A stretch of 38,102 nt of DNA from Clostridiales bacterium (GTDB lineage Bacteria; Bacillota; Clostridia; Christensenellales; Borkfalkiaceae), in NCBI GenBank assembly GCA_015055865.1, contig SVHK01000014.1, positions 1-38,102 on the forward strand, in the 5' to 3' direction. This document shows positions 2,463 to 34,912 of this stretch, one piece after another (position 1 is the stretch's first letter; each line of letters begins with the position of its first letter). Made by a program: the position numbers and the translations under genes. A model generated the notes under the pieces. That model was given only the letters and a program-made list of their open reading frames with translations, was not told where the DNA came from and did no database searches.

Positions 2463-2576
2463 AATAAAAGCGGACGCGTCAATGCACCGCAGGAAAGCAT
2501 AAATCGTATTTACTCCCTTTCGTTCGCCGACAACGTCCCGTTCGGCGACACTTTACGCACATTAACTACTCTTATT
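2463..2576 (-). promoter_or_regulatory. tetrahydrofolate (THF) riboswitch
   Basis: Read on the minus strand, the segment shows the conserved blocks of the THF riboswitch in order: GAGTAG near the 5' end, GCGTAAAGTG, GAACGGGACGTTG, CGAACGAA, then CTGCGGTGCATTG and the closing CCGCTTTTAT. The 5' arm AATAAGAG (2569-2576) pairs along its full length with CTTTTATT (2463-2470), forming the closing P1 helix. The gene behind it is a folate S-component, as expected for this class. Binding of reduced folates is predicted to lower folT expression. The RNA would start almost exactly at P1, given the promoter at 2583-2611. Confidence 0.9.
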
Positions 2577-8425: not shown

Positions 8426-11056
8426 TTATTCTTCGTCTTGAACCGTTTCTTCAACAACTTCTTCCGTAGTTTCATCTACAACTTCCGTCGTTTCTTCTAC
8501 TTCGTCTTCCACGACTTGCGCCAAATCTTCGGGACTTAAATCCGCCGCCGTTTCTTCGGGTGCTTGCGTTTCCGCTTCGTCGTCGCGTTCGGTTACGTCA
8601 ACGGTTGCCACAAGACTGTCTTTAACGTTCATAACTCTTACGCCACGCGTCGTTCTACCGATTTTGGAAATAGTATCCGCGTGCATACGGATAATCGTAC
8701 CACCCGTCGTGATAATCATAATGTCGTCTTCGTCACTTACGAGTTTCATATTGACCAAATCGCCCGTCTTTTCGTTGAACACGCCCGCTTTAATACCTTT
8801 ACCGCCACGGTTTTGCAAACGGTAATCTTCTACGGAAGAACGCTTACCGTAACCGAACGACGTGAGCGTGAACAAATCTTTGTTCTTATCAATTACGAGC
8901 ATATCGACGAGCACGTCGTCTTTAGAAAGGTTAATCGCGCGAACGCCCTGCGTACCACGACCGGTAGGACGAACGTCCGTTTCCGCAAAGCGGATACATT
9001 TACCTTCGTGAGAAGCTACGATAAGTTCGTCTTCGCCCGTCGTGAAGTGTACGGCAATCAAATCGTCTTCGTCTTGGAGCTTAATCGCAATCTTACCGTT
9101 CTTAGGGATACGCTTAAATTCGTCCGTCGAAGTCTTTTTAATCAAACCGCGTTTGGTCGCCATAATAAGGTATCCGTTACCGTCTTCTTTTACAGGCAAT
9201 ACCGTTTGCACCTTTTCGCCTGCGTCAAGCTGAATAATATTGACGACGGCTCTACCCCTTGCCGTTCTATTCGCTTCGGGAATTTCGTAACCCTTTACAG
9301 AATACACCTTACCTTTAGACGAGAAAAGCAAAATCGGGTCGTGCGTGGAGCAAACGAACATCTTTTCAACGTAGTCCTCGTCTTTAGGTCTATGCGCCGT
9401 AATACCGCGACCGCCTCTGCCTTGCGCTCTATATTCCGCAACGGGCAAACGCTTGATATAACCCGAATGAGTAAGCGAGATAACGACGTCTTCTCTATCA
9501 ATCAAGTCTTCGTCTTCGATATTGCCGTAATCCACGGAAATTTCCGTCTTTCTCGGCGAAGGATATTTATTCTTGATTTCCGTCAAATCGTTCTTAATAA
9601 TCGCCATTACGCGCCATTCGTTCGCAAGAATATCCTTCAAATCGATAATCGTTGCGCGGAGCGCGTTAAGTTCCTCGTTGAGTTTTTCAACTTCTAAGGA
9701 AGTCAATCTTTGCAAACGCATTTCCAAAATAGCGTTCGCTTGCTTTTCGTCCAATACGAACGCCGAAGTCAAGCCTTCGATAGCGTTGTACTTGTCTTTG
9801 GATTCTTTAATAATGCGTACGACTTCGTCAATATTCGCAAGCGCCAAAACCAAACCGGCAATCAAATGCGCACGTTCTTCCGTCTTGTCGAGTTCGAATT
9901 TGGTACGACGAACGATAACTTCCTTTTGGTGTTCAAGGTAATGATACAATACTTCGCGAAGGTTGAGCGTTTTAGGTTCGGTACCGTTCTCAACGAGCGC
10001 AAGCAAGATAATACCGTCGGAAATTTGGAGTTTGGTCTTTTTGTAAAGGGTATTCAACACGACTTGCGCGTTGGCGTCCTTTTTACATTCGATAACGATT
10101 CTAAGCCCGTCGCGGTCGGATTCGTCGCGAATATCGGAGATACCTTCCAATCGCTTATCGCGTACCATGTCTGCAATCGTTTTGATAAGCATCGCTTTAT
10201 TGACTTGGTAAGGGATTTCCGTAACGACGATACGGGAACGGATATTCGCGCCCGAACCGTATTCTTCAATTTCGCATTTGGAACGGATAACCAAGCTACC
10301 TTGCCCCGTTCTATACGCGTTTCTAATCCCGCTTCTACCCATTAAGATACCGCCCGTAGGGAAATCGGGCGCGGGAATATATTCCATCAATTCGTCTACG
10401 GTGATTTCGGGATTGTCAATCATCGCAATCGTACCGTCGATAACTTCCGCAAGGTTGTGGGGCGGGATATTCGTCGCCATACCGACCGCAATACCGTCCG
10501 CGCCGTTTACGAGCAAGTTAGGATATCTTGCAGGGAGTACGGTGGGCTCTTCTTCGCTACCGTCGAAGTTGGGAATAAAATCTACCGTTTTCTTATCAAG
10601 GTCTTTGAGCATTTCGGAGGCAAGCTTGGTAAGTCTTGCTTCCGTATAACGCATTGCAGCCGCAGGGTCGCCGTCCACCGAACCGAAGTTACCGTGTCCG
10701 TCAACGAGCGGAAAACTAATGGTAAAATCTTGCGCAAGTCTTACGAGCGCGTCGTAAACGGAACTGTCGCCGTGGGGGTGATATTTACCCATACAGTCAC
10801 CGACGATACGGGCGCACTTTCTAAACGCCTTGTCGTTATACAGCCCCATTTCGTGCATAGAGAACAAAATTCTTCTATGAACGGGTTTCAACCCGTCGCG
10901 AACGTCGGGAATTGCGCGCGATTTATTAACCGCCATCGCGTAGGCAATGAACGAGCGCTTTAATTCTTCATCTACTTCGACGTCCAATAATTTGGTCATC
11001 GCAAGCGTTTTCTTAAATTCCTCGGTCAATTCAGGGCTTGTTTCTCTTTTAGCCAT
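8426..11056 (-). CDS. gyrA: DNA gyrase subunit A
   Basis: Subunit of DNA gyrase that cuts and rejoins DNA while negative supercoils are introduced. The 876-residue protein has the breakage-reunion domain with the catalytic tyrosine in [10 protein letters not shown] (Tyr137, equivalent to E. coli Tyr122). The quinolone-determining region [12 protein letters not shown] has Ser98 and Asp102, the wild-type residues at the E. coli 83 and 87 positions. The C-terminal beta-pinwheel carries a GyrA box, QGRGGRG, which favours gyrase over topoisomerase IV. The last ~50 residues are an extremely acidic tail. It follows gyrB by 115 nt with no clear promoter between, so both are probably one transcript. 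A 35-nt repeated module lies directly upstream of its RBS. Confidence 0.97.
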
Positions 11057-18776: not shown

Positions 18777-18811
18777 GAAACCTCACGTTTCATCGAGTCT
18801 TTCTATCTTTC
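18777..18811 (-). repeat. 35-nt leader module, copy before recG
   Basis: In mRNA sense GAAAGATAGAAAGACTCGAT, then arms GAAAC/GTTTC. Other copies have GCAAC/GTTGC, so both arms changed together. The GAGG of the recG ribosome site falls in the loop and 3' arm, three bases before the ATG. Confidence 0.8.
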
Positions 18812-18854
18812 TTTTGCGGTTTGGTTGTTCGTACCCGTAACCGACCAAATCATT

Positions 18855-18979
18855 GCTTGGCGTTAGATACGAGCAGTTCAAGGAGCAACGCGGATTCCCG
18901 ACGGGAGTTTACTAATTGGTAAACGAGCAAGGGAAACGCAAGTTGCGACGAAGAAATGCGAAGTATATAACCGCCAAGC
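18855..18979 (-). repeat. structured intercistronic repeat, copy A1
   Basis: About 125 bp. On the plus strand the ends are GCTTGGCGTTAGATAC and GTATATAACCGCCAAGC, pairing over about 16 positions with one mismatch and one bulge. Inside, GCAAC pairs with GTTGC, TTCCC with GGGAA, and TTTAC with GTAAA at the tip. Conserved unpaired pieces are GACGGGAG and CGAGCAAGG. See the covariation finding. Confidence 0.8.
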
Positions 18980-18984
18980 CTGTC

Positions 18985-19105
18985 GTTTAATCGGAGAACC
19001 GAGCAAGACAAGGCGCGTTGAGTACGCCGACGGGAGTTTACTTAGCGTAAACGAGCAAGGCGCACGGAAACGCAACGCAGTATTGCGACGGTTATACGAT
19101 TAAAC
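18985..19105 (-). repeat. structured intercistronic repeat, copy A2
   Basis: About 121 bp directly after A1. Outer arms are GTTTAATCG / CGATTAAAC plus AACCG/CGGTT. Inner pairs are GCGTTG/CAACGC and CGCC/GGCG, with tip TTTAC/GTAAA. All outer and inner arms differ from A1 but still pair. Confidence 0.8.
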
Positions 19106-19114
19106 ATATAAAAG

Positions 19115-19148
19115 GGCGGAATGAAACGCCTACTCCGCTCCTTCCGCC
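19115..19148 (-). terminator. hairpin after fakA, possible terminator
   Basis: Arms GGCGGAA / TTCCGCC with a 20-nt loop lie 58 nt after the fakA stop and are followed on the minus strand by CTTTTATAT. It may be only a partial terminator if recG is read through. Confidence 0.4.
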
Positions 19149-19205
19149 ACAATTACTTTATTATTATGTTGTAAATAAGACTGAATTATACTTTACGTTT
19201 ATTGA

Positions 19206-20849
19206 TTATTCTAAAGAAATGACGTAATAATAAACGGGTTGACCACCGCTGTGGAAATCAACGTCACAGTCGGGATATTGTTCCGCAATCTTTTCGCAAA
19301 GTTCTTGCGCGTCTTCCGCCTTTACGTCCTCGCCGTAGTAAAGCGTGATGACTTGGTGGAAGTCTTCTTTCATTTTCGCAATCAATTTCAAGGTCGTTTC
19401 TTCAGGCGTCGAAGATTTTGCTAAAATCTTCTTATCGTCCAAACCGATAATATCCCCTTCCTTGATGCTAAATCTATTTAAAGTCGTCGTACGAACGGCG
19501 TGCGTTACTTGTCCTGCCTTAACGTTATCGAGCGCGTGAATCATATTCGTCTTGTTTTCTTCCGCGTTCGTTTCGGGGTTAAATTCAAGCGCAGCCGCAA
19601 AACCTTGCGGTACGTTCTTGGTAGGAATAACGTGCAACGTACGGTTTTGAACGAGTTTTTTCGCTTGTTCCGCCGCAAGAATGATGTTCTTGTTGTTGGG
19701 GAATACGAAAATGTGTTCCGCGTTAATTTTTTGCGCCGCCGTCGCAATATCGTCCGCCGAAGGGTTCATCGTTTGACCGCCTTCGATTACGCGGTCTACG
19801 AACAAATCTTTGAAAATATCCGCAAGCCCAGACCCTGCGCAAATCGCAAGCATACCCATTTCTTTCTTTTCCGCTTCGAGTTTCGCGCGAAGTTGACGGT
19901 TTTGCTCAAGCATATTTTCAATCTTCGGTCTATCAAGCTCGCCAAGTTCCAAAGCGTACGTGAGCGCCTTGCCCGGTTGATTGGTATGGACGTGCACTTT
20001 TACCATTTCCAAATCCCCGATACAAATAACGCTGTCGCCCAAATTCATTAAGCGTTCGCGAAGTCTGTCGATGTCCGAAAGGGTCGTGCTCTTTTTAAGG
20101 TTAATAATGAAAAATTCGGTACAATAAGCGAATTCGATTTCGCCCAAGTCCATATTGATAATATCCGAATTATCGCCAAAATCTTCTTGCGGTTCGGCTT
20201 GCGCTTCCATCAACGTCGCGGTGTTGACTTCTTCTCCCGTCAACGCGGAAGCAAAACCTTTAAAGATAGTCATAAGCCCGACGCCACCGCTATCGACAAC
20301 GCCTGCTTTTTTAAGTACGGGCAAAAGTTCGGGCGTTAAAGCCAACGCTCTTTCGCCTTCTTGAATAACCGCGTCGAAAAATTCTTCAAAGTTTTTCTTT
20401 CTTGAACAACTCTTCGTCGCGTATTCGCTCATCATACGAATAACGGTAAGAATCGTACCTTCCTTAGGCACGGATACCGCGCCGTAAGCAACTTTCGTAC
20501 CGGCTTCGAGCGCCTTGATGAAAGTTTTGATATCGACTTCTTTTTGGCATTCGCGAACGACGGAACAAATACCCCTTAAAATTTGGGATAAGATAACGCC
20601 GGAATTACCGCGCGCGCCACGCAAAGCACCTTTGGAAACGCTATCGCAAACTTCTACGAACGCGTTGGATTGACAAGCCGTCAACTCCTTAACGGAAGAC
20701 TGCATCGTCAAAGACATATTCGTACCGGTATCCCCGTCGGGAACGGGGAAAACGTTTAGCGCGTCAACTTTAGCGCGGTTTTGTTCAAGTAGTTTTGCGC
20801 CGACAAGAACCATTTTTCTAAATTCGGTGCAGTTTATCGTTTTATGCAT
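19206..20849 (-). CDS. fakA: fatty acid kinase FakA (DAK2 domain, YloV family)
   Basis: ATP-dependent kinase that phosphorylates fatty acids carried by DegV/FakB proteins, feeding acyl-phosphate into phospholipid synthesis. The 547 residues start with the DhaL-like nucleotide domain: NVFPVPDGDTGTNMS (about 29-43, metal-binding aspartates), ARGNSGVILSQILRG (about 79-93) and DSGGVGLM. A middle linker and a C-terminal DegV-like domain follow, with IFVFPNNKN and a late HSGGQPVYYY. Full length for the family. It follows asp23 by 112 nt in the same direction, as yloU-yloV in Bacillus. Two DegV genes in the window are candidate partners. Confidence 0.93.
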   Translation of the reverse strand: MHKTINCTEFRKMVLVGAKLLEQNRAKVDALNVFPVPDGDTGTNMSLTMQSSVKELTACQSNAFVEVCDSVSKGALRGARGNSGVILSQILRGICSVVRECQKEVDIKTFIKALEAGTKVAYGAVSVPKEGTILTVIRMMSEYATKSCSRKKNFEEFFDAVIQEGERALALTPELLPVLKKAGVVDSGGVGLMTIFKGFASALTGEEVNTATLMEAQAEPQEDFGDNSDIINMDLGEIEFAYCTEFFIINLKKSTTLSDIDRLRERLMNLGDSVICIGDLEMVKVHVHTNQPGKALTYALELGELDRPKIENMLEQNRQLRAKLEAEKKEMGMLAICAGSGLADIFKDLFVDRVIEGGQTMNPSADDIATAAQKINAEHIFVFPNNKNIILAAEQAKKLVQNRTLHVIPTKNVPQGFAAALEFNPETNAEENKTNMIHALDNVKAGQVTHAVRTTTLNRFSIKEGDIIGLDDKKILAKSSTPEETTLKLIAKMKEDFHQVITLYYGEDVKAEDAQELCEKIAEQYPDCDVDFHSGGQPVYYYVISLE

Positions 20850-20916
20850 TACTAATACTCCTAAATGGGGGCAGAATGTCGCCTACAAGCGAAAAAGCGA
20901 AAAATATTTATTGTAT

Positions 20917-20938
20917 GCGTACGGGCGCACGCCTACGC
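20917..20938 (-). promoter_or_regulatory. hairpin between asp23 and fakA
   Basis: GCGTA/TACGC with inner GGCG/CGCC makes a GC-rich stem, followed after several bases on the minus strand by AATATTTTTC. It may attenuate fakA relative to asp23 or protect the asp23 mRNA end. Confidence 0.4.
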
Positions 20939-20961
20939 GCGCAGAAACCCTTCGCAGGTAT

Positions 20962-21312
20962 TTACAATTTAACCCCAATGACGTTGACGTTAATGGTATC
21001 TACAATCATACCCGTAAATCTTTCGACTTTGTACTTAACCGCTTCCTTTAAGGACTCGGCAACCGCGTTAATAGAAACGCCGTACTTGACGATAACGTAA
21101 ACGTCGATATAAATTCTGTTACCGGACGTCGTAACTTTAATCCCACGTCCGCCGTTGTCTTTTTTCAAAAGTTCGGACAAACTGTCGGTAAAACGACGCG
21201 AAACCATACCCACGATGCCATAACTTTCCATCGCAGTATGAGAGGCGACCTTAGCAATCGCAAGGTCAGATATGGAAATTTTTCCGTAAGCGTTATTCGT
21301 ATTAACTGACAT
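20962..21312 (-). CDS. Asp23/Gls24 family protein (YloU-like)
   Basis: A 116-residue cytoplasmic Asp23/Gls24-family protein, linked to envelope stress and often encoded before FakA. It contains GKISISDLAIAKVASHTA at the start, the GIVGM motif, and the amphipathic ending strands IYIDVYVIVKYGVSI. I chose MSVNTNN as start because GGAG lies 8 nt upstream; the GTG three codons earlier is too close to that site. It opens the predicted asp23-fakA(-recG) transcription unit, with a promoter at 21337-21365. Confidence 0.9.
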   Translation of the reverse strand: MSVNTNNAYGKISISDLAIAKVASHTAMESYGIVGMVSRRFTDSLSELLKKDNGGRGIKVTTSGNRIYIDVYVIVKYGVSINAVAESLKEAVKYKVERFTGMIVDTINVNVIGVKL

Positions 21313-21336
21313 AATTTTCACTCCAACTTCTTACCT

Positions 21337-21365
21337 ATTATACGATATTTTATAAGGAAAGGCAA
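21337..21365 (-). promoter_or_regulatory. promoter of asp23-fakA
   Basis: TTGCCT, 17 bp, TATAAT on the minus strand. Confidence 0.65.
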
Positions 21366-21425
21366 GTGATTTTCAAAAAAAATCAGATTTTTTTTATTTT
21401 TTTGTTTTTTCCAGCTCGTTTTTAA

Positions 21426-21454
21426 TTGCTTTTTTATTAAATTGATGATATAGT
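21426..21454 (+). promoter_or_regulatory. promoter of rpmB
   Basis: TTGCTT, 17 bp, TATAGT. The leader of about 80 nt contains CGTTTTG and CAAAACG (21464-21498), which can pair and could take part in ribosomal-protein control. Confidence 0.5.
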
Positions 21455-21541
21455 ATTTATGCTCGTTTTGACAAAGCAATATATTCTTAAGCAAAACGGG
21501 TAATACGAACACGATAAAATAATCTCAATCGGAGGTGTCAT

Positions 21542-21724
21542 ATGTCTAGAGTATGCAATATCTGCGGTAAAGGTCAAGCGTCTGGTAACAACGTAAGCCA
21601 CTCCAACCGCAAAACGAGAAGAACGTTCAAAGTAAACGTACAAAAAGTTTCCTACGTTGATAACGGTAAAGAAACGACCGGTTACGTTTGCGCAAGATGC
21701 CTGAAGAAAACTGAACGCGCTTAA
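21542..21724 (+). CDS. rpmB: 50S ribosomal protein L28 (bL28)
   Basis: Large-subunit ribosomal protein, 60 residues. It starts [20 protein letters not shown] and ends [11 protein letters not shown]. The cysteine pairs CNIC and CARC make this the zinc-binding (C+) form. CGGAGG is the ribosome site. Divergent to asp23-fakA, as in Bacillus. Two hairpins follow, the second a strong terminator. Confidence 0.97.
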
Positions 21725-21751
21725 CGCCCTACTTAATGCGTAGGCGTTTTG
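21723..21751 (+). terminator. first hairpin after rpmB
   Basis: AACGCC and GGCGTT arms with inner TAC/GTA, overlapping the stop codon and followed by TTTTG. Confidence 0.5.
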
Positions 21752-21778
21752 CCTGCGACAAGAACAACGAAACTCAGG

Positions 21779-21808
21779 CTGTCCCGACTCTCGGGACAGT
21801 CGTTTTTT
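21779..21808 (+). terminator. strong terminator after rpmB
   Basis: Perfect CTGTCCCGA / TCGGGACAG stem with a 3-nt loop, followed by TCGTTTTTT. Confidence 0.88.
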
Positions 21809-21825
21809 CGTATATAAAAGCATTT

Positions 21826-21864
21826 AATCCCCGTTGCCTTTTCAAAAAGCAACGGGGATTTTAT
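21826..21864. terminator. terminator after the XRE gene
   Basis: Perfect 12-bp arms AATCCCCGTTGC / GCAACGGGGATT adjoining the stop of the XRE gene; T-rich on the plus side. Confidence 0.7.
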
Positions 21865-22064
21865 TATAAATCTCTACCAACTAATTCGTCTAACGTAATT
21901 CCGTAAAAATCAGCTAATTTTATACAAAAATCTATATTCGGCATTACTAAATTTCTTTCCCACCGCGATAAATTTTGGTTAGATATTCCCGTCCTTTTTT
22001 CAAGCTCTATCAAACTCAATCCATTCGCTATTCTATGATTTTTTAATTCTTCACCAATCGTCAT
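21864..22064 (-). CDS. XRE-family HTH transcriptional regulator
   Basis: A 66-residue protein made almost entirely of one Cro/C1-type helix-turn-helix: EELKNHRIANGLSLIELEKRTGISNQNLSRWERN, followed by FCIKLADFYGITLDELVGRDL. The start MTIGEEL was chosen for domain fit and the AAAGGTG upstream; longer readings have no ribosome site. It is divergent from the gene at 22185, and two 14-bp palindromes lie between them, so it probably represses both itself and its neighbour. Confidence 0.88.
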   Translation of the reverse strand: MTIGEELKNHRIANGLSLIELEKRTGISNQNLSRWERNLVMPNIDFCIKLADFYGITLDELVGRDL

Positions 22065-22098
22065 TTTCACACCTTTTAGTTTCTTTTTTATAATTTTA

Positions 22099-22112
22099 CA
22101 ACAAATTTGTTG
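22099..22112. promoter_or_regulatory. operator palindrome 1
   Basis: CAACAAATTTGTTG is a perfect 14-bp palindrome. It falls between a possible TTTCAA and TATAAA pair for the minus-strand XRE gene. Confidence 0.75.
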
Positions 22113-22119
22113 AAAATGC

Positions 22120-22148
22120 TTGACTTCAACATATTTGTTGATTATAAT
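22120..22148 (+). promoter_or_regulatory. promoter of the gene at 22185
   Basis: TTGACT, 17 bp, perfect TATAAT. Operator 2 occupies most of the spacer. Confidence 0.8.
22127..22140. promoter_or_regulatory. operator palindrome 2
   Basis: CAACATATTTGTTG differs from operator 1 at one position and lies 28 bp away, centre to centre, inside the -35/-10 spacer. Confidence 0.75.
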
Positions 22149-22184
22149 ATCTAATAGTAAACATATCAAAGGAGAATAAAATTT

Positions 22185-22481
22185 ATGAAATCAAAATACG
22201 TTTCGCCCGTTTTGCAAATGTTTTTAGAAGGACGCGGAACAATCGATTCGATAGGCGTTATACCCAAAAGCTACCGACCGAAAGAGTCCAAGTATAGCGA
22301 GTTAGAAAATTTCTTTCAAGAGAAATACAAAAATTTTCCGAAATTAATGAAATTACACAATGAAATCATTACGGAACTTAGTGGGGATATATCGGCGGAA
22401 TCCGATTATTTTTACGTACAAGGATTCCGATTCGGCGTTTTATTGGGGCTTGATATTGCGGGTTTTATTAAAGAAGAGTAA
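22185..22481 (+). CDS. small protein of unknown function, DUF6809-like
   Basis: A 98-residue soluble protein with no signal or membrane segment. The N-terminal half contains YRPKESKYSELENFFQEKY; the C-terminal half is helical and ends FYVQGFRFGVLLGLDIAGF, a pattern I associate with small DUF6809-type Firmicutes proteins, many of which sit on mobile or stress islands. No enzymatic motif is seen. AGGAG precedes the ATG. Its promoter spacer contains an operator, so it is probably repressed by the divergent XRE protein. The assignment to a family is tentative. Confidence 0.65.
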   Translation: MKSKYVSPVLQMFLEGRGTIDSIGVIPKSYRPKESKYSELENFFQEKYKNFPKLMKLHNEIITELSGDISAESDYFYVQGFRFGVLLGLDIAGFIKEE

Positions 22482-22492
22482 TTAAAAATACG

Positions 22493-22518
22493 ACCGCCTT
22501 GTTTTTCAACAAGGCGGT
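22493..22518. terminator. bidirectional terminator
   Basis: Perfect ACCGCCTTG / CAAGGCGGT arms between the converging small gene and ridA; T-rich on both exits. Confidence 0.88.
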
Positions 22519-22523
22519 TGCTC

Positions 22524-22895
22524 TTATTTTTCGGCGATTACTTCCACTTCCACTTTTACTCCCTTAGGCAGGTCTTTTACCGCCACGCAACTACGCGCAG
22601 GTTTGCCTGTAAAATATTTCGCGTAAACGGCGTTAAACGCCGTAAAATCGGAAATATCCGCAAGGAAACAAGTCGTTTTCACCGCGTTTTGATAGCTTAC
22701 GCCGACGGCGGATAATACCGCGCCGAGATTTTTCATAACTTGCTCGGTTTGTTCTTCGATACCGCCCGATACGATTTCGTTCGTTTCGGGGTCGATAGGA
22801 ATTTGCCCCGAAATAAAAATAAGATTACCGCTAACGACGGCTTGCGAATACGGTCCGATTGCCGACGGCGCGTTTTTCGTTGAAATTATTTCCAT
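22524..22895 (-). CDS. ridA: RidA family enamine/imine deaminase
   Basis: A 123-residue Rid-family protein that hydrolyses reactive 2-aminoacrylate and aminocrotonate made by PLP enzymes such as threonine dehydratase. It shows the conserved opening APSAIGPYSQAV, FISGQIP and the substrate-binding arginine in KPARSCVAV (Arg101, equivalent to E. coli Arg105), with VEVEVIAE at the end. It lies downstream of ilvA in the same direction, the classical functional partner, but the two are separated by 315 nt carrying the repeat. TAGGAG precedes the ATG. The gene ends in a bidirectional terminator, closing the branched-chain block. Confidence 0.93.
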   Translation of the reverse strand: MEIISTKNAPSAIGPYSQAVVSGNLIFISGQIPIDPETNEIVSGGIEEQTEQVMKNLGAVLSAVGVSYQNAVKTTCFLADISDFTAFNAVYAKYFTGKPARSCVAVKDLPKGVKVEVEVIAEK

Positions 22896-22941
22896 TTTTT
22901 TCTTACTCCTATTTTTAAAAGTTTTTATCTTGCGACTAATG

Positions 22942-22962
22942 GTCGCCCTACGCCTATCGGCG
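22942..22962 (-). repeat. short leader repeat before ridA
   Basis: GTCGCCCTACGCC...CGGCG on the plus strand recurs at 27295-27315 before leuC. In mRNA sense it is a GCC/GGC hairpin followed by GTAGGGCGAC. Here a second hairpin GCGAC/GTCGC abuts it. Confidence 0.6.
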
Positions 22963-23023
22963 AAAAGAAGAAATTAAATATTTTTTAAGTCCGCTTTTTG
23001 CAGGCGTTGTCCGTTAAAGCTGT

Positions 23024-23053
23024 GCTTGGCGTTAGATACGAGCAGTTCAAGGC
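23024..23053 (-). repeat. fragment of an A1-type structured repeat
   Basis: Matches the left end of A1 (GCTTGGCGTTAGATAC then GAGCAGTTCAAGG) and then stops; no matching right arm follows. It sits just before the complete copy B. Confidence 0.75.
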
Positions 23054-23069
23054 GTATTGATTATCGTTA

Positions 23070-23187
23070 AAACGCGGAGAACCGAGCAAGACAAGGAGAG
23101 CGAGCATTTTTGTAGGGAGCGTACTAAATCGTACGCGACCAAAAAAACGCGGAGCTCGACGAAGTATTGCGCCGGTTATACGCGTTT
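23070..23187 (-). repeat. structured intercistronic repeat, copy B
   Basis: About 118 bp in the ilvA-ridA gap. Outer arms AAACGCG/CGCGTTT and AACCG/CGGTT; inner CGAGC/GCTCG and TTTTTG/CAAAAA; tip CGTAC/GTACG. It is the most divergent copy, yet every stem is kept by paired changes. Confidence 0.8.
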
Positions 23188-23210
23188 AGTTAAATTTAGA
23201 TTGGATTAGT

Positions 23211-24404
23211 TTAGATTAACTTAAAGCCATATCCAGTAAGCGCGCGCTTAATTTGTTCTATATGCTCGTAATTTTTCGTTTCAAGGATAATACGTAGATA
23301 ACAACCGTTTACGTCCGAGCCTTCGTTTGCGCGTTCGTGATGGACGGAAGTTACGTTACCGCCTAAATCCGCAATAATTCTGGACACGTCTTTTAATTGA
23401 CCGGGCTTATCCATAAGTTCGATGGTGAGCTGACAGTTTCTACCCGACATTAAAAGACCGCGTTTGATGACTCTTGAAAGAATGGTTACGTCAATATTAC
23501 CGCCTGAAAGGATACAAACGACTTTTTTGCCTTCAAGGTTGAATTTCTTGAACATAGCCCCTGCAACCGCAACAGCGCCCGCGCCTTCGGTTACGAGCTT
23601 ATGTTGTTCCATCAACGCCAAAATCGCCGCGGAAATTTCGTCGTCGGTTACCGTCGCGATTTCGTCCACGTATTTTTTGCAAAGTTCATACGTTAAATCG
23701 CCCGGTTTTTTCACGGCTATCCCGTCCGCAATCGTCGAAACGGCGGTAAGCTCTTCCACTTGCCCGTCGTCAATCGATTTTTTCATACTCGGCGCGCCAA
23801 CCGCTTGTACGCCGTACACTTTAACGTTCGGATTTAAAGTTTTAACGGTATAGGCTATCCCTGAGATAAGTCCGCCACCGCCAATAGGTACGATAACGGC
23901 GTCCAAATCGGGAATTTGTTCGATAAGCTCTAAACCAATCGTGCCCTGCCCTGCAATTACGTCTTCATCGTTAAAAGGGTGGATAAAGGTATAGCCTTTT
24001 TCCGATTGAAGTTCCAACGCTTTTTGATAGGCGTCGTCGTACACGCCGTCGACTAAACACACTTCAGCGCCATAACTTTTGGTTGCTTCGACTTTGGAAA
24101 TAGGTGCGCCGTCGGGCAAGCAAATGACCGCTTTTATATCGTTCTTTTTCGCCGCGAGCGCAACGCCTTGCGCGTGGTTGCCAGCCGAACAAGCCACCAC
24201 CCCTTTCGCTTTTTCTTCCGCCGAAAGATTGCTCATTTTATAATACGCGCCACGGATTTTGAACGAGCCGGTCGTTTGTAAATTTTCCGTTTTTAAGTAT
24301 AAATTTACGCCGTTCGCGAGCTTGGGCGCGTAAATAACGTCCGTTTTTCGAACTACGTTTTTTAGCGCGTAATTCGCGCGATATACGTTATCTAAAGTCA
24401 ACAT
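23211..24404 (-). CDS. ilvA: threonine ammonia-lyase
   Basis: PLP enzyme that turns threonine into 2-oxobutanoate, the entry to isoleucine. The 397 residues carry the PLP lysine in TGSFKIRGAYY (Lys49), the glycine loop IGGGGLISG, and SGGNIDVTIL. The C-terminal ~70 residues are an ACT-like domain (LTIELMDKPGQL) that binds a regulatory amino acid. The length and a single ACT unit resemble the shorter clostridial form more than the 500-residue E. coli IlvA with two ACT units. It lies 15 nt after leuB, at the end of the branched-chain gene run. Confidence 0.94.
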   Translation of the reverse strand: MLTLDNVYRANYALKNVVRKTDVIYAPKLANGVNLYLKTENLQTTGSFKIRGAYYKMSNLSAEEKAKGVVACSAGNHAQGVALAAKKNDIKAVICLPDGAPISKVEATKSYGAEVCLVDGVYDDAYQKALELQSEKGYTFIHPFNDEDVIAGQGTIGLELIEQIPDLDAVIVPIGGGGLISGIAYTVKTLNPNVKVYGVQAVGAPSMKKSIDDGQVEELTAVSTIADGIAVKKPGDLTYELCKKYVDEIATVTDDEISAAILALMEQHKLVTEGAGAVAVAGAMFKKFNLEGKKVVCILSGGNIDVTILSRVIKRGLLMSGRNCQLTIELMDKPGQLKDVSRIIADLGGNVTSVHHERANEGSDVNGCYLRIILETKNYEHIEQIKRALTGYGFKLI

Positions 24405-24419
24405 ATTTTTCCCTTCTTA

Positions 24420-25487
24420 TCAAAGATTTTCAATAATTTTCTCCGTCATTTCCGTCGTGGAAAGCGGGGTTGTCGTTCGAGCCAAATCAAACGTCCTAAA
24501 GCCCTGTTCAAGCGTCTTATCGACTGCGTTCAATATCGCGTCGCTTTCCTTTTTCAAATCAAACGAATAGAGCAACATCATCGCGCAAGAAAGTATGGTC
24601 GCAATCGGATTCGCCTTGTTTTGTCCTGCAATATCGGGCGCCGAGCCGTGAATCGGCTCGTACAAACCGCGTTTGGTATCGCCGAGCGACGCCGACGGCA
24701 ACATACCGATAGAGCCCGTGATTTGCGACGCCTCGTCCGATAAAATATCCCCAAACATATTGCTCGTTACGATAACGTCGAATTGCGCTGGATTTTTAAC
24801 GAGTTGCATCGCCGCATTATCGACGAGCATATCCGATACTTCCACGTCCGGATAGTCTTTTGCGATTTCTTTTACGATTTTACGCCAAAGGCGAGAAGTT
24901 TCCAAAACGTTCGCTTTGTCGATACTCGTCAGTTTTTTATTGCGTTTTCTCGCCGTTTCAAACGCGACGCGCGCAATTCTTTCAATTTCCATACGGCTAT
25001 ACGCTTCCGTGTCGAAGGCTTCTTCGCCGTATTTCCCGTCGCGATACCCACGCTCGCCGAAATAAATTCCGCCCGTAAGCTCGCGGACAATCATTATATC
25101 AAATCCGTTTTCGACGATTTCCGCTTTCAACGGACATTCGTCTTTCAAAGCAGGATAGAGTTTCGCAGGACGGAGATTGGTAAATAAGCCCATCGCCGAA
25201 CGAATCCCCAAAAGCGCCTTTTCGGGTCGAACGTTTCCGCCGAGATTATCCCATTTCGGACCACCCACCGCGCCGAGCAAAACGCTGTCCGCGCTCAAGC
25301 AACCGTCAACAGTTTCTTTAGGCAAAGGCTCTCCGACTTTGTCAATCGCAATACCGCCGATTAAATAGGATTTAAACTCAAATTCGTGATTAAACTTTTT
25401 CCCAACCGCGCGCAATACTTCAACCGCGCTCTCTACGATTTCAGGGCCGATACCGTCCCCTTTTAATAAAGCGATGGTATAGTTCAT
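24420..25487 (-). CDS. leuB: 3-isopropylmalate dehydrogenase
   Basis: NAD-dependent oxidative decarboxylation of 3-isopropylmalate, the third step of leucine synthesis. The 355 residues show [34 protein letters not shown] (with the substrate-binding tyrosine and arginine context), the signature [19 protein letters not shown] and [14 protein letters not shown], which holds the NAD pocket. It starts one base after the leuD stop, so coupling is strong. The ribosome site lies inside the leuD end. Confidence 0.97.
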
Positions 25488-25488
25488 T

Positions 25489-25983
25489 TTATTTCAACGC
25501 TCCTTTTTTAATCGATTCGACGAGTCCGCCGTTCGCAATAATTTTTTGAATAAATTCAGGGAAAGGCGTTACGGAAAATTGCTTGCCCGTCGTAAGATTA
25601 TAAATAACGCCTGACGTTAAGTCCGCTTTGATTTCGTCGCCGTCCACAATCCCGTCCACCACTTCGTCGCTCTCGACGATAGCAAGTCCGATATTGATAG
25701 AATTTCTGTAAAAAATCCGCGCAAAACTTCTTGCGATTACGAGCGATATTCCGCTTTCCTTAATCGCAATCGGCGCGTGTTCCCGCGAAGAACCGCAACC
25801 GAAATTGTAGCCGGCTACAATCATATCCCCCGTTTTCACTTTTCCTTTAAAGTCCTTGTCTATGTCTTCCATACAATGGGAGGCAAGTTCTTTTTTGTCA
25901 ATCGTATTCAAATATCTCGCCGGAATAATAACGTCCGTATCGACGTTATCCCCGTATTTAATCGCTTTACCTTGAAAATCCAT
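25489..25983 (-). CDS. leuD: 3-isopropylmalate dehydratase small subunit
   Basis: Small swivelling subunit of isopropylmalate isomerase, which acts with LeuC in the second leucine step. The 164 residues (bacterial/archaeal short type) include the substrate loop motif [13 protein letters not shown] and [17 protein letters not shown]. It lies 11 nt after leuC and 1 nt before leuB. Confidence 0.96.
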
Positions 25984-25994
25984 ACCTTTTCCCC

Positions 25995-27260
25995 TTAACC
26001 CATTATTTCGTTCGGGTCCGCTATCTTACCCATAATCGCGCTCGCCGCCGCCACTGCAGGGCTTGCAAGATATACTTCGCTCTTCACGTCGCCCATTCTG
26101 CCGACGAAGTTTCTATTCGTCGTCGCGACCGCTCTCTCGCCTGCCGCTAAAATACCCATATGCCCGCCCAAACACGGTCCGCAAGTGGGCGTTGATACTA
26201 CGCAACCCGATTCGATAAACGTTTTCAACACTCCGCTTTCAAGCGCCTGTAAATAGATATCCTGCGTAGCAGGAATAACGATTGCGCGAACGTTTTTCGC
26301 TATTTTCTTGCCCTTTAAAATACTCGACGCTTCTTCTAAATCCTTATAAAATCCGTTGGTACAAGACCCGATTACGACTTGGTCGATTTTAATATCCCCG
26401 ATTTGGTCGAAAGTTTTGGTGTTTTCGGGTAAATGCGGGAAGGCTACCGTCGATTTAATTTGAGATAAATCAATTTCGTACGTTTCGTCGTACACGGCGT
26501 CCGCGTCCGCTTTATAGACGGTATAAGGTTTATCGGTACGGGATTTGACGTATTCTTCCGTTTGTTCGTCCACTTCGAAAATACCGTTCTTTGCGCCCGC
26601 TTCTATCGCCATATTTGAAATGGTCAATCTATCGAATATGGATAAAGAACGCACGCCTTCGCCTACGAATTCCATTGATTTATAGAGCGCTCCGTCCACG
26701 CCGATTTTGCCGATGATATGTAAAATGACGTCTTTGCCCGAAACGTATTTATTGAGTTTGCCTTTAAGTACGAATTTAATCGCGGACGGCACTTTAAACC
26801 ACGCTTTGCCCGTCGCCATTGCGCACGCCATATCCGTCGAGCCCGACCCCGTCGAAAACGCGCCGAGCGCGCCGTAAGTACAGGTATGCGAGTCCGCGCC
26901 AATTACGACGTCCCCACAAACGACCAAGCCTTTTTCAGGTAAAAGCGCGTGTTCTATGCCCATACGCCCAACGTCGAAAAAGTTGACTACTCCTTTATCT
27001 TCGCAAAAGTCCCTGCACATTTTACATTGAACGGCGGCTTTGATGTCTTTATTGGGTGCGAAATGGTCCATTACCATCGTAACTTTTTGTTTGTCGAACA
27101 CTTCTTCCGCGCCAATTTTTTCAAATTCGCGAATCGCGACGGGGGACGTGATGTCGTTGCCAAGCACTCTATCTACGTTGACCCAAATTAATTGCCCCGA
27201 TTCTACTACTTCCAATCCTGCGTGTTTCGCAAGGATTTTTTGCGTCATTGTCATACCCAT
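25995..27260 (-). CDS. leuC: 3-isopropylmalate dehydratase large subunit
   Basis: Iron-sulphur subunit of isopropylmalate isomerase. The 421 residues, the shorter LeuC type, contain [13 protein letters not shown], the first cluster cysteine in [12 protein letters not shown] and the other two in [13 protein letters not shown], all three present. [10 protein letters not shown] was taken as the start, with AAAGGA about 12 nt upstream. The 354-nt gap upstream to ilvD contains the C-type repeat and the same GTAGGGCGAC leader motif as ridA. Confidence 0.96.
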
Positions 27261-27294
27261 TTGTTTTTTTGTCCTTTTTGATTGTTAGTTAAAA

Positions 27295-27315
27295 GTCGCC
27301 CTACGCCAAACGGCG
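27295..27315 (-). repeat. short leader repeat before leuC
   Basis: Same GTCGCCCTACGCC...CGGCG as at 22942-22962. A further hairpin GCGAG/CTCGC lies just upstream in mRNA sense. Confidence 0.6.
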
Positions 27316-27391
27316 TGATAACGCGAGCAATGCTCGCTTTTATGAGTCCTTTCTTTTTTCGTGAGCATAGCCCCTTTCCCCTTTTTCGTTA

Positions 27392-27608
27392 AAACGCGAA
27401 GAACCGAGCGCAACGTCCCGTTGCATCGAGTCTTTCTATCTTTCCACTACGCTTGGGCATTGCCCACTCGTCAACCGACCAAACCCGTGCTAAATCGGAG
27501 AACCGAGCAGTTCAAGGAGCGTTGAGTACACCGACGGGAGTTTACTTTATCGTAAACGAGCAAGGCGCACGGAAACGCGACGAAGAAATGCGACGGTTAT
27601 ACGCGTTT
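27392..27608 (-). repeat. composite structured repeat, copy C
   Basis: Outer left arm AAACGCG with GAACCGAG, then the 35-nt module, then AACCGACCAA, then a second left end TAAATCGGAGAACCGAG, the usual interior (GACGGGAG, TTTAC/GTAAA, CGAGCAAGG) and a single right end GACGGTTATACGCGTTT. The right arm pairs with the outer left arm, not the inner one, so the copy looks like a recombined hybrid. Confidence 0.75.
27410..27444 (-). repeat. 35-nt leader module, copy within C
   Basis: GAAAGATAGAAAGACTCGAT plus GCAAC/GTTGC, identical to the copy at 29406-29440. Confidence 0.8.
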
Positions 27609-27614
27609 CGCCCG

Positions 27615-29276
27615 TTAAAAGCGATTAATAATTGCACCCTTATCGGCAGAACTCACCTGCTCCCTATACCTGCGCAAATATCCGGTTACTTCTTTTTTCT
27701 TCAATACCGTTTTCTCTTTACGTTTTTCAAATTCTTCGCAAGAAATCTTCCATTCGATTTTATAGTTTGGAATATCAATTGCAATTATATCCCCGTCTTG
27801 CACGTAGGCAATCGGACCGCCGGAAACCGCTTCGGGGGATACGTGTCCAATAGACGCGCCACGCGTCGCGCCCGAAAATCTACCGTCGGTGATAAGCGCT
27901 ACGTCTTTATCTAACCCCATTCCTGCAATTGCCGAAGTCGGGGAAAGCATTTCGCGCATACCCGGTCCGCCGGCAGGGCCTTCGTAACGAATAACGACGA
28001 CGTCGCCCTTTTGGATTTTACCGCCGTAAATTGCCGAAATACACTCTTCTTCGCTATCAAAAACCTTAGCAGGACCTTCGTGCACGAGCATTTCTTCCGC
28101 AACCGCCGAACGTTTTACCACGCAACCGTTGGGGGCAAGATTGCCCTTTAATACCGCGATACCGCCCGTTTTTCCAAACGGATTATCCACCGAACGAATG
28201 ACGGAAGTATCCAAGTTTTGCGCAGTGGAAATATTTTCTTTCAAGGTTTTACCCGTGCAAGTCAAAACGCTCGTATCAAGCAAACCCAATGTATCAAGTT
28301 CTTTTAATACGGCGTACACTCCGCCTGCTTCGTTTAAGTCTTCCATATACGTAGGACCAGCAGGCGCGAGATGGCACAAGTTGGGCGTTTTCTCGCTGAT
28401 TTCGTTCACTTCGTCTAAATTGAACGGAAGTCCGCACTCGTTGGCAATCGCCGGTAAATGGAGCATACTGTTCGTCGAACAACCGAGCGCCATATCCGCG
28501 GTGATTGCATTTTTGAACGCGGACGCCGTCATAATATCGCGCGGTCGAATATTCTTTCTGACAAGCTCCATCACTTGCATACCTGCGTGTTTTGCAAGCT
28601 CAATACGCGCGGAATATACCGCAGGAATCGTACCGTTACCACGCAAACCCATACCCAATACTTCGGTCAAGCAGTTCATTGAGTTCGCCGTGTACATTCC
28701 CGAGCAAGAACCGCAAGTGGGGCATACCTTCTTTTCAAATTCGCTCAGCTTTTCGTCGTCGATTTTGCCTGCGTTGTACGCGCCGACCGCTTCAAACATA
28801 CTTGAAAGCGAGCGTTTTTTACCGCCTACTCGCCCAGCGAGCATCGGTCCGCCCGAAACGAACACGGTCGGAATATTTAACCGCGCCGCCGCCATTAAAA
28901 GCCCCGGTACGTTCTTGTCGCAGTTGGGGAGCATTACGAGTCCGTCAAACCCGTGCGCTAACACCATCGCTTCGGTTGAATCCGCAATTAAATCACGGGT
29001 AACGAGCGAATATTTCATACCTTTGTGTCCCATCGCGATACCGTCGCAAACGGTAATGGCAGGGAACATAATGGGCGTACCGCCAGCCATCGCAACGCCG
29101 AGTTTTACGGCGTCGCAAATTTTATCAAGGTTGGTGTGCCCTGGTACGATTTCGTTGTACGAACTGACTATCCCGATTAAAGGGCGAGCAAGTTCTTCGT
29201 CCGTCAAGCCGAGCGCGTGATAGAGCGAACGGTGCGGAGCGTTTTGAAATCCGTCGATAAGTTGTTCTTTTATCAT
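27615..29276 (-). CDS. ilvD: dihydroxy-acid dehydratase
   Basis: Iron-sulphur enzyme converting dihydroxy-isovalerate and dihydroxy-methylvalerate to their 2-oxo acids in valine and isoleucine synthesis. The 553 residues show cluster motifs [10 protein letters not shown] and [18 protein letters not shown], the [16 protein letters not shown] region, and the signature [14 protein letters not shown]. Full length. It stands isolated between two repeat-filled gaps (27261-27614 and 29277-29641), both in the same transcription direction. Confidence 0.97.
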
Positions 29277-29316
29277 TGTTGTTACCTATTGTTGTTATTT
29301 GGAAAATCGTTTAGGC

Positions 29317-29352
29317 GCAACCTTTCGTTGCATCGAATTTTTCTATCTTTCG
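29317..29352 (-). repeat. 35-nt leader module, copy before ilvD
   Basis: In mRNA sense GAAAGATAGAAAAATTCGAT plus GCAAC/GTTGC with loop GAAAG. It is the most diverged copy and ends 40 nt before the ilvD start. Confidence 0.75.
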
Positions 29353-29405
29353 TTGTCGCTTGTTTGGAATAAAACCCATTACCGTTAAAACGCGAAGAAC
29401 CGAGC

Positions 29406-29440
29406 GCAACGTCCCGTTGCATCGAGTCTTTCTATCTTTC
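29406..29440 (-). repeat. 35-nt leader module, copy within D
   Basis: Identical to the copy at 27410-27444. Confidence 0.8.
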
Positions 29441-29484
29441 TACTACGTTTAAGTGTTGCATTCTCGTCAACCGACCAAGTTATT

Positions 29485-29608
29485 GCTTGCCGTTAGATAC
29501 AAGCAAGACAAGGAGCAACGCGGATTCCCGACGGGAGTTTACTTTATCGTAAACGAGCAAGGAAAACGCAAGTTGCGACGCAGTATTGCGAAGTATATAA
29601 CGCCAAGC
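29485..29608 (-). repeat. structured intercistronic repeat, copy D (inner, A1 type)
   Basis: Ends GCTTGCCGTTAGATAC / GTATATAACGCCAAGC. The interior is nearly identical to A1 (GCAAC/GTTGC, TTCC/GGAA, TTTAC/GTAAA). Confidence 0.8.
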
Positions 29609-29641
29609 GTTGTATTGCGACGGTTATACGCGTTTAGTTCT

Positions 29642-34631: not shown

Positions 34632-34675
34632 AAAAAAATCTCTTTTGCGCAAGAAAAAAACTTGCGCAAAAGAGA
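34632..34675 (-). terminator. T-box regulated terminator
   Basis: Perfect 15-bp arms TCTCTTTTGCGCAAG / CTTGCGCAAAAGAGA followed by seven U on the minus strand, 17 nt before the leuA start. Confidence 0.92.
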
Positions 34676-34912
34676 CGAAGAATCTTATTCTCCGCGGTAC
34701 CACTCCGCTTGACGGCAATCCGCCCACTCACGCCTTATTTTAGGCAAGCTCTATCACGGGAGCACCCGACCGACTCTACTAAGCTTTCGCCGTTCTTTCG
34801 GTAGCTCGGGGGTGAGTATGTATTCGCAGTCGTTTTCGGCTCGCACCAACCGCCGACTCTCTGTAAACTCTCTTACGAATTTTCGTCCCGTCATCGCTTT
34901 TATTATAGTATA
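34632..34912 (-). promoter_or_regulatory. T-box leader, leucine-specific
   Basis: Minus-strand RNA of about 280 nt. The T-box sequence GGAGTGGTACCGCGG lies at 34692-34706. Stem I shows AGAGAGTCGGCGGTTGGTG, the usual distal hairpin. The best specifier codon is CUC (34814-34816), followed by ACCCCCGAG in the position normal for T-boxes. Uncharged tRNA-Leu would pair with CUC and with UGGU in the antiterminator. This suits leuA just downstream and probably controls the whole ilv/leu run. Confidence 0.92.

Follow-up and report, generated by a model that had tools for sequence, protein, structure and literature searches.

The closest described counterparts of the repeats reported here are bcr1, a 167-bp repeat of the Bacillus cereus group (PMC2267715) that has been likened to miniature inverted-repeat transposable elements (MITEs; PMC3446304), the MRSC-65-2 motif, which was judged to be selfish and possibly relevant as DNA (PMC11109978), and the REP/REPIN elements with their RAYT transposases (PMC3733652, PMC3116915). 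Bacterial mobile repeats are usually thought to be recognized through fixed end sequences. Here we analyze a 38,102-nt stretch of DNA from a Clostridiales bacterium (contig SVHK01000014.1, our contig C34; hereafter the window), which carries five copies of a ~125-bp palindrome, every one on the + strand. The genome to which it belongs (G000, 1.43 Mb in 51 contigs) is 94% complete. Using a covariance model of the element, R1, we followed these repeats across genomes. They probably represent an undescribed family of non-autonomous, MITE-like mobile palindromic DNA of ~120-155 bp, with no gene of its own. In this order its orientation nearly always follows replication, a hint that a little-known sort of mobile DNA is involved.

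Fold, covariation and strand preference

When folded, the + strand of the element forms a long hairpin interrupted by conserved purine-rich internal loops (AGA; GAGCA..CAAGG; GGGAG..CGAGC; ACGNAG..TGCGA). For the covariation analysis, 29 of the 37 core matches in the window's own genome were aligned by sequence, with a structure taken from one member; 7 truncated, partial or hybrid-looking cores and L020_902 were left out. Standard pairs fill 89.8% of the 1189 pair cells, compared with 70.6% in shuffled alignments and 29-40% under slid structures. Both sides vary in 27 of the 41 pairs, double-change cells number 243 (86 when shuffled), and the covariation score was reached by none of 500 shuffles. 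Two further alignments were fitted to the R1 model and are hence biased towards it. One, of 71 copies from the own genome, G072 and G233, pairs at 90.8% and has 717 double-change cells where shuffles have 234; the other, of 21 distinct copies from other lineages, pairs at 87.4% and has 204 where shuffles have 69. Copies within a genome are kin, so the shuffle figures do not amount to R-scape statistics, and slid structures, which pair at 26-41% over the three alignments, are the better control. Counting against the covariation, further pair types show no excess over shuffles in the 29-copy set, where 100 of 500 shuffles reach the count, and a slight excess in the 71-copy set, where 24 of 500 do.

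Arms also suit their own partners better than the arms of other copies. The longest complementary run is 7.0 with the own partner and 5.1 with foreign ones in the own genome, 6.3 and 4.5 in G233, 8.7 and 4.6 in other lineages, and 8.0 and 7.2 in G072. Loops are less variable than stems, and invariant columns in the own-genome copies include AGA, CAAG and GGGAG. An initial annotation of the window had described arms that change in matched pairs; this pattern extends over all 29 own copies, and its proposal that the fold is conserved and the letters are not is supported by the 29-, 71- and 21-copy sets alike. Distinct 8-mers of the 5′ arm number 15 in 27 own copies, 17 in 18 from G233, 4 in 18 from G072 and 2 in 11 from G355, a distant complete genome. 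Within a genome, terminal inverted repeats are therefore not fixed in the own genome and G233, and are nearly fixed in G355. The annotation's case against a simple MITE with fixed ends stands for the first two but not for G355, whose fixed ends and target duplications give it the look of an ordinary MITE.

Mismatches within the fold are one-sided, with G.A outnumbering T.C by 407:10 in 47 own copies; the remaining five groups have ratios of 554:17, 163:1, 145:2, 169:6 and 59:1. Across overlapping sets, the R1 strand is more stable than its complement in 27/29, 20/20, 97/100, 64/65 and 20/20 copies with DNA parameters, and in 25/29, 18/20, 83/100, 60/65 and 20/20 with RNA parameters. As G.A so far exceeds T.C and the R1 strand mostly folds better, it seems to be the fold of this strand that matters, and one strand's fold that is kept.

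The internal loops bear on whether the covariation was made by mutation. Template switching in quasi-palindromes would copy one arm onto the other, and the repeats would then be MITEs with homogenized arms and no selection on their fold. Whole arms do differ together between copies, A.C mismatches come close to G.T in the own genus, and the replication-linked orientation presented below suits a strand-dependent process. Yet purine-purine loop mismatches remain uncorrected in every group examined, which argues that an imperfect fold is under selection. We consider this explanation improbable as a full account, though part of the covariation may stem from template-switch repair of palindromes.

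Orientation relative to replication and distribution

By the geometry of replication, the R1 strand corresponds in sequence to the leading-strand template and to nascent lagging-strand (Okazaki) DNA, not to the lagging-strand template, at which IS608-type elements aim. We measured GC skew on the element strand, with the element masked, wherever a locus had an R1 match and was no shorter than 2500 bases (56 of the 64 named loci qualified). Skew is below zero in 12 of 12 own loci, 13 of 14 from G072, 14 of 15 from G233, and 55 of 56 named same-genus loci, together 94 of 97 within the order, counts in which loci sharing a contig or genome are not independent and local genes also shape local skew. 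At G355 loci it is negative in 10 of 12. All six own-genome contigs with several matches hold them in one direction each. By hand counts of the places listed, tandem copies included, orientation is uniform on 21 of 22 multi-copy contigs in the genus scan (the exception, G015 C6, switches once along the contig) and on 20 of 22 in the order scan when the own genome is left aside (exceptions G070 C9 and G190 C26).

Replication and transcription were separated using loci of at least 4000 bases and element clusters with a gene on both sides, as called by a home-made longest-open-reading-frame caller whose single assignments are fallible. Sixty-four of the 94 clusters are antisense to both neighbors, 22 are mixed and 8 are sense to both (6 with negative skew, 2 slightly positive), proportions similar to those among the gene pairs that these loci contain, of which 373 are leading, 161 mixed and 73 lagging. 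Negative skew is found for 92 of the 94. No cluster lies antisense to a pair of lagging-strand genes in a locus of positive skew; had neighbors set the orientation, about a dozen such cases should have occurred. This absence led us to reject orientation by transcription: within the order, element orientation tracks replication, not neighboring genes. In the own genome, 23 of 34 copies are antisense to both neighbors.

The family is widespread. R1 matches the own genome 45 times (44 in the genus-wide scan) and, counting that genome, 34 of 37 genomes of the genus (61-96% complete) with 2 to 76 matches each, the other three having none. Again with the own genome included, matches occur in 69 of 200 genomes of the order (31 of 103 genera; stricter filters were used and few candidates scored, so that copy counts are lower bounds) and in 16 of 249 genomes of the phylum. 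A BLAST search with element A1 of the window matched 33 of 61 genomes. These are the own genome and 32 of its 36 congeners; not one of the 24 genomes that belong to other families was matched. A tip-pattern search of 84,980 species returned 64 stretches, 63 of them titled as metagenome-assembled genomes of Clostridia or Clostridiales, many naming deer, goat or sheep gut. A Prevotella contig with the tip pattern (L044) lacks an R1 match and was dismissed as chance. Viral contigs gave no tip-pattern match, and nothing among plasmids and phages matched the one G355 copy used as a query. Two of the loci, L041 and L071, are identical in sequence.

None of the 34 own copies examined falls within a gene called by our home-made caller. 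Beyond the order, certain copies (L127, L131, L134) sit among tRNA genes or near 16S or 5S rRNA genes. Elements and tandem arrays also occur at contig ends (the ends of L020, L156 and L159 and the start of L097), and they may break assemblies. The strand bias, the wide distribution and the one-sided G.A mismatches go beyond what the initial annotation had described. They concern a family that is present in many copies in ruminant-gut Clostridia genomes and missing from Rfam.

Signs of mobility, candidate enzymes and rival explanations

Presence of the elements is polymorphic between relatives. The two genes that flank element B of the window also flank a syntenic spacer in L072 that has no R1 match and shows an 82-base gap between matched flanks; the window and L072 aligned on one side only, with both flanks matched in the spacer comparison. 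Other syntenic spacers of the genus lack an R1 match too, including L055 against L074 and L027 against L190, which are the clear cases of the four pairs aligned, and more among the comparisons listed. The flanks of these element-free spacers are too diverged for a base-by-base reading of the insertion site.

Copies in G355 are ~155 bp long, 92-100% identical across the seven loci compared, and end in matching GTGTTCAAAAAG/CTTTTTGAACA. Most of them are bordered by 6-bp target duplications. Flanking repeats of at least 5 bases accompany 10 of 12 G355 and 1 of 2 G319 copies, compared with 26 of 182 mismatched flank pairs; one of the 15 loci was dropped (L143, left end not found), and the left flank could slide by one base, likewise in the control. 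At zero offset, the mean 6-base identity is 5.07 against a control of 3.61, a high value that reflects an AT-rich target.

Some copies in these distant genomes are modified. In L142 and L143 (G355 and G319), copies carry a ~54-bp insert at one inner stem, holding a GCCAACAAGTTGGC-like hairpin and TCTTCTTT, and recall the composite units of the window genome. In G360, occurrences of the end motif with at most one mismatch include, among the positions listed, inverted pairs that cover some 30 to 150 bases; these positions suggest very short (~30 base) palindromes that have the TGTTCGAAAAG ends of the long elements. In L138, a copy at 1404-1532 lies within a T-box match at 1268-1691 on the same strand, as if inserted into the leader; the match spans 424 bases for a 219-position model, with the copy as an insert.

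Near-complete orientation by replication strand within the order would also suit a chromosomal signal that serves the machinery of replication or segregation and, like Chi and KOPS sites, owes its orientation to selection. To this explanation we give hardly any weight: copy number runs from 0 to 76 within one genus, three of its genomes have no match, syntenic spacers stand free of the element, and G355 has near-identical copies with target duplications.

Hairpins of the REP or IS200-IS605 type, moved by a Y1 (HUH) transposase on single-stranded DNA, would likewise account for hairpin DNA with strand-specific orientation, and a GGAG tag does lie beside the tip stem. Y1 matches (PF01797) exceed the cut-off in 13 of 41 genus genomes, and in the order they co-occur weakly with R1 (33 of 69 R1-positive against 40 of 131 R1-negative genomes, p 0.02). 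The own genome has no Y1 match, however, nor do 10 of the 16 high-copy genomes of the order, and 12 fetched Y1 loci (2-3.4 kb) hold no R1 match. Furthermore, the better-folding strand is not the lagging-strand template, and HUH chemistry is not known to yield target duplications such as those in G355. We therefore regard this explanation as very unlikely. Reverse transcriptase (RT, PF00078) shows no association with R1 across the order (16 of 69 R1-positive and 26 of 131 R1-negative genomes, p 0.59), and the 16 fetched Y1 or RT loci (about 2-4 kb) are without an R1 match. Absent from the own genome, and weakly (Y1) or not (RT) associated in the order, both were rejected as mobilizers. A scan of four genomes for ends of the G355 type revealed no pair of inverted ends 1-2.5 kb apart among the places listed; in three of these genomes, a backward control pattern gave almost as many matches.

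Whether the repeats act as DNA or as RNA was judged mainly from wobble pairs, orientation and distribution. They could be an undescribed structured RNA, either an independent small RNA or an antisense or untranslated-region element, with many gene copies and a fold kept for RNA function; we allow this an appreciable, if minor, chance. Strong covariation, conserved unpaired purines and one-sided G.A mismatches would all suit such an RNA, as would the better folding of the R1 strand with RNA parameters too. In the own genome, G.T (24, ~2% of pairs) is nearly matched by A.C (20), whereas 26 tRNAs from the fetched loci contain 40 G.T and 0 A.C among 556 pairs (~7%), which favors DNA. When the own copies are aligned half to half, unfitted and with loop positions counted, the figures are 38 G.T and 79 A.C; the genus set gives 94 and 84, or 102 and 59 with G072 and G233. 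Of the two natures that the initial annotation had left side by side, structured RNA or mobile DNA hairpin, the hairpin fits better, because copy number is variable, syntenic spacers stand empty and G355 has 6-bp target duplications, and because orientation is tied to replication and, in the own genome, placement is mostly antisense and G.T wobbles are few relative to tRNAs. A range of 0-76 copies within one genus and an orientation set by replication would be unexpected of an RNA gene.

Several observations weigh against the mobile-DNA reading. Outside the order, G.T outnumbers A.C by 44 to 11 (~6% of pairs), close to the tRNA level, which raised the weight we give to RNA, and the tip base is G.U in 39 of 71 copies of the own-genome, G072 and G233 set and in 15 of 20 from other lineages, as would suit RNA; together these favor single-strand folding and are compatible with RNA. 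Thirteen loci elsewhere in the phylum, with 5 negative and 8 positive skews, show no strand bias, and the dependence among loci and the influence of local genes noted above temper the skew counts within the order. Overlap with a called open reading frame was seen for 3 of 18 copies in G233 and for 4 of 86 in the named genus. In the own group we found no consistent target duplication: flanking repeats, found against expected, are 39 against 36.7 in G233, 53 against 91.3 in G072 and 90 against 78.8 in the named genus, and the excess in the own genome (72 against 42.0) comes largely from two copies beside tandem copies. Finally, the 94% complete own genome has no match to PF01797 or PF00078, Y1 and RT are both missing from 7 of the 16 genomes of the order in which 9 or more R1 matches were scored, and no transposase or autonomous copy was identified in our searches.

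On the mobile-DNA reading, which we consider the most likely, the features of the R1 repeats join as follows. The + strand folds into the long hairpin with its conserved purine-rich loops. A trans-acting recombinase or transposase would recognize these loops together with the shape of the stem, and not the letters of the stem, leaving the arms free to drift in matched pairs. New copies would enter intergenic DNA in an orientation dictated by replication, such that the folding strand becomes the G-poor strand, with the sequence of nascent lagging-strand DNA. The enzyme, the recognition of single-stranded DNA and the coupling to the fork are what we infer here. A more specific version, to which we assign only a small chance, has the palindromes enter the chromosome single-stranded and already folded, on the Okazaki side of the fork, read by shape and unpaired purines and mobilized by neither Y1/HUH nor RT, possibly by host replication or annealing machinery alone. 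A fold found across the phylum, arms that change freely and near-complete replication orientation in one order point to shape-based recognition on one DNA strand. More generally, covariation and many copies need not imply a functional RNA; orientation to replication, the share of wobbles and the asymmetry of mismatches are of use in telling such DNA from RNA.

Elements of the window and comparison with known systems

Elements A1, A2, B and D-inner are present with the positions and arms given in the initial annotation, C is indeed a hybrid, and the fragment that it had listed is the stretch at 23024-23052. The features are as follows.

18855..18979, + strand: element A1, outer stem GCTTGGCG/CGCCAAGC, then GATAC/GTAT, GCAAC/GTTGC and TTCCC/GGGAA
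Within 18855..18979, + strand: tip of element A1, GGGAG-TTTAC..GTAAA-CGAGCAAGG
18985..19105, + strand: element A2, head-to-tail with A1, with another arm set, GTTTAATCG/CGATTAAAC
23024..23052, + strand: A1-type 5′ fragment, whose 29 bases all agree with the 5′ end of A1
23070..23187, + strand: element B, arms AAACGCG/CGCGTTT, tip CGTAC/GTACG
27391..27483, + strand: upstream half of composite unit X at C, with AAAACGCG arm, GCAACG-TCC-CGTTGC hairpin, TCTTTCTATCTTTC and a second hairpin
27488..27616, + strand: hybrid element C, whose 3′ arm pairs with the arm at 27391
29387..29484, + strand: upstream half of composite unit X at D, preceding element D-inner
29485..29608, + strand: element D-inner, nested within unit X
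29609..29635, + strand: 3′ closing arm of unit X, GTTGTATTGCGACGGTTATACGCGTTT, with its partner arm from 29387 onward

In element C, the 5′ arm GCTAAATCGG and the 3′ arm CGCGTTT are mismatched; the latter pairs instead with AAAACGCG at 27391, ~100 bases upstream. Both C and D sit inside the longer unit X, in which the outer arm, the GCAACG-TCC-CGTTGC hairpin, TCTTTCTATCTTTC and the second hairpin lie upstream and the closing arm downstream. A second repeat (GTTGCATCGAGTCTTTCTATCTTTC...) at 18779-18838, 27412-27471, 29319-29378 and 29408-29467 precedes elements and forms composites; it may be an insertion unit in its own right, flanked by CGTTGTAT-like repeats. In L190, three ~100-bp repeated units with GACGGTGGTCAGTTTTGTTTC and the second-repeat hairpin adjoin an element at 10022.

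Genes flanking the window elements all lie on the - strand, and the other genes of the window are not uniformly so. Named from Pfam matches, the flanking genes are recG and fakA at A1/A2, a RidA-like gene and ilvA at B, an aconitase-family leuC-like gene and ilvD at C, and ilvD and ilvC at D. The window also holds a T-box leader at 34668-34903 (-) and a tetrahydrofolate riboswitch at 2466-2575 (-), both above Rfam gathering scores; the gene just downstream of the T-box leader is presumably leuA-like.

Searched against Rfam, the window elements gave no match at gathering score or at E<=5, and 20 loci gave one match on a copy, the T-box of L138. No Rfam family describes the elements, in line with the annotation, which had recognized no known RNA class in them. 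In our literature searches we recognized no paper describing the R1 family, which is no proof that none exists.

The MRSC-65-2 motif, as portrayed in PMC11109978, resembles the R1 elements in having one long covarying stem and dozens of copies per genome. Its conserved UYCCGG repeat, compared by motif rather than by alignment, is present in only 1 of 186 distinct R1 copies on either strand. REP/REPIN elements share with R1 a palindromic, extragenic character and a tetranucleotide tag beside the hairpin. REPs measure 20-40 bp in the description in PMC3733652, however, whereas R1 elements are ~125 bp with a conserved multi-loop fold, in a genome without a Y1 match. The IS200/IS605 single-strand transposons, as outlined in PMC6006769, correspond to our reading of R1 in that a structure is recognized and insertion is tied to one side of the fork. 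They differ in targeting the lagging-strand template, which for R1 elements would carry the less stable fold, and R1 is further set apart by the lack of a Y1 gene in the own genome and by the G355 target duplications. As in MITEs, the R1 elements combine a lack of coding capacity with many dispersed copies. By description rather than by sequence, bcr1 lies in another lineage, and the passages of PMC2267715 and PMC3446304 on which this comparison rests make no mention of replication orientation; nevertheless bcr1 and similar repeats, like the R1 elements, are intergenic and MITE-like, of similar size, present in many copies and able to fold.

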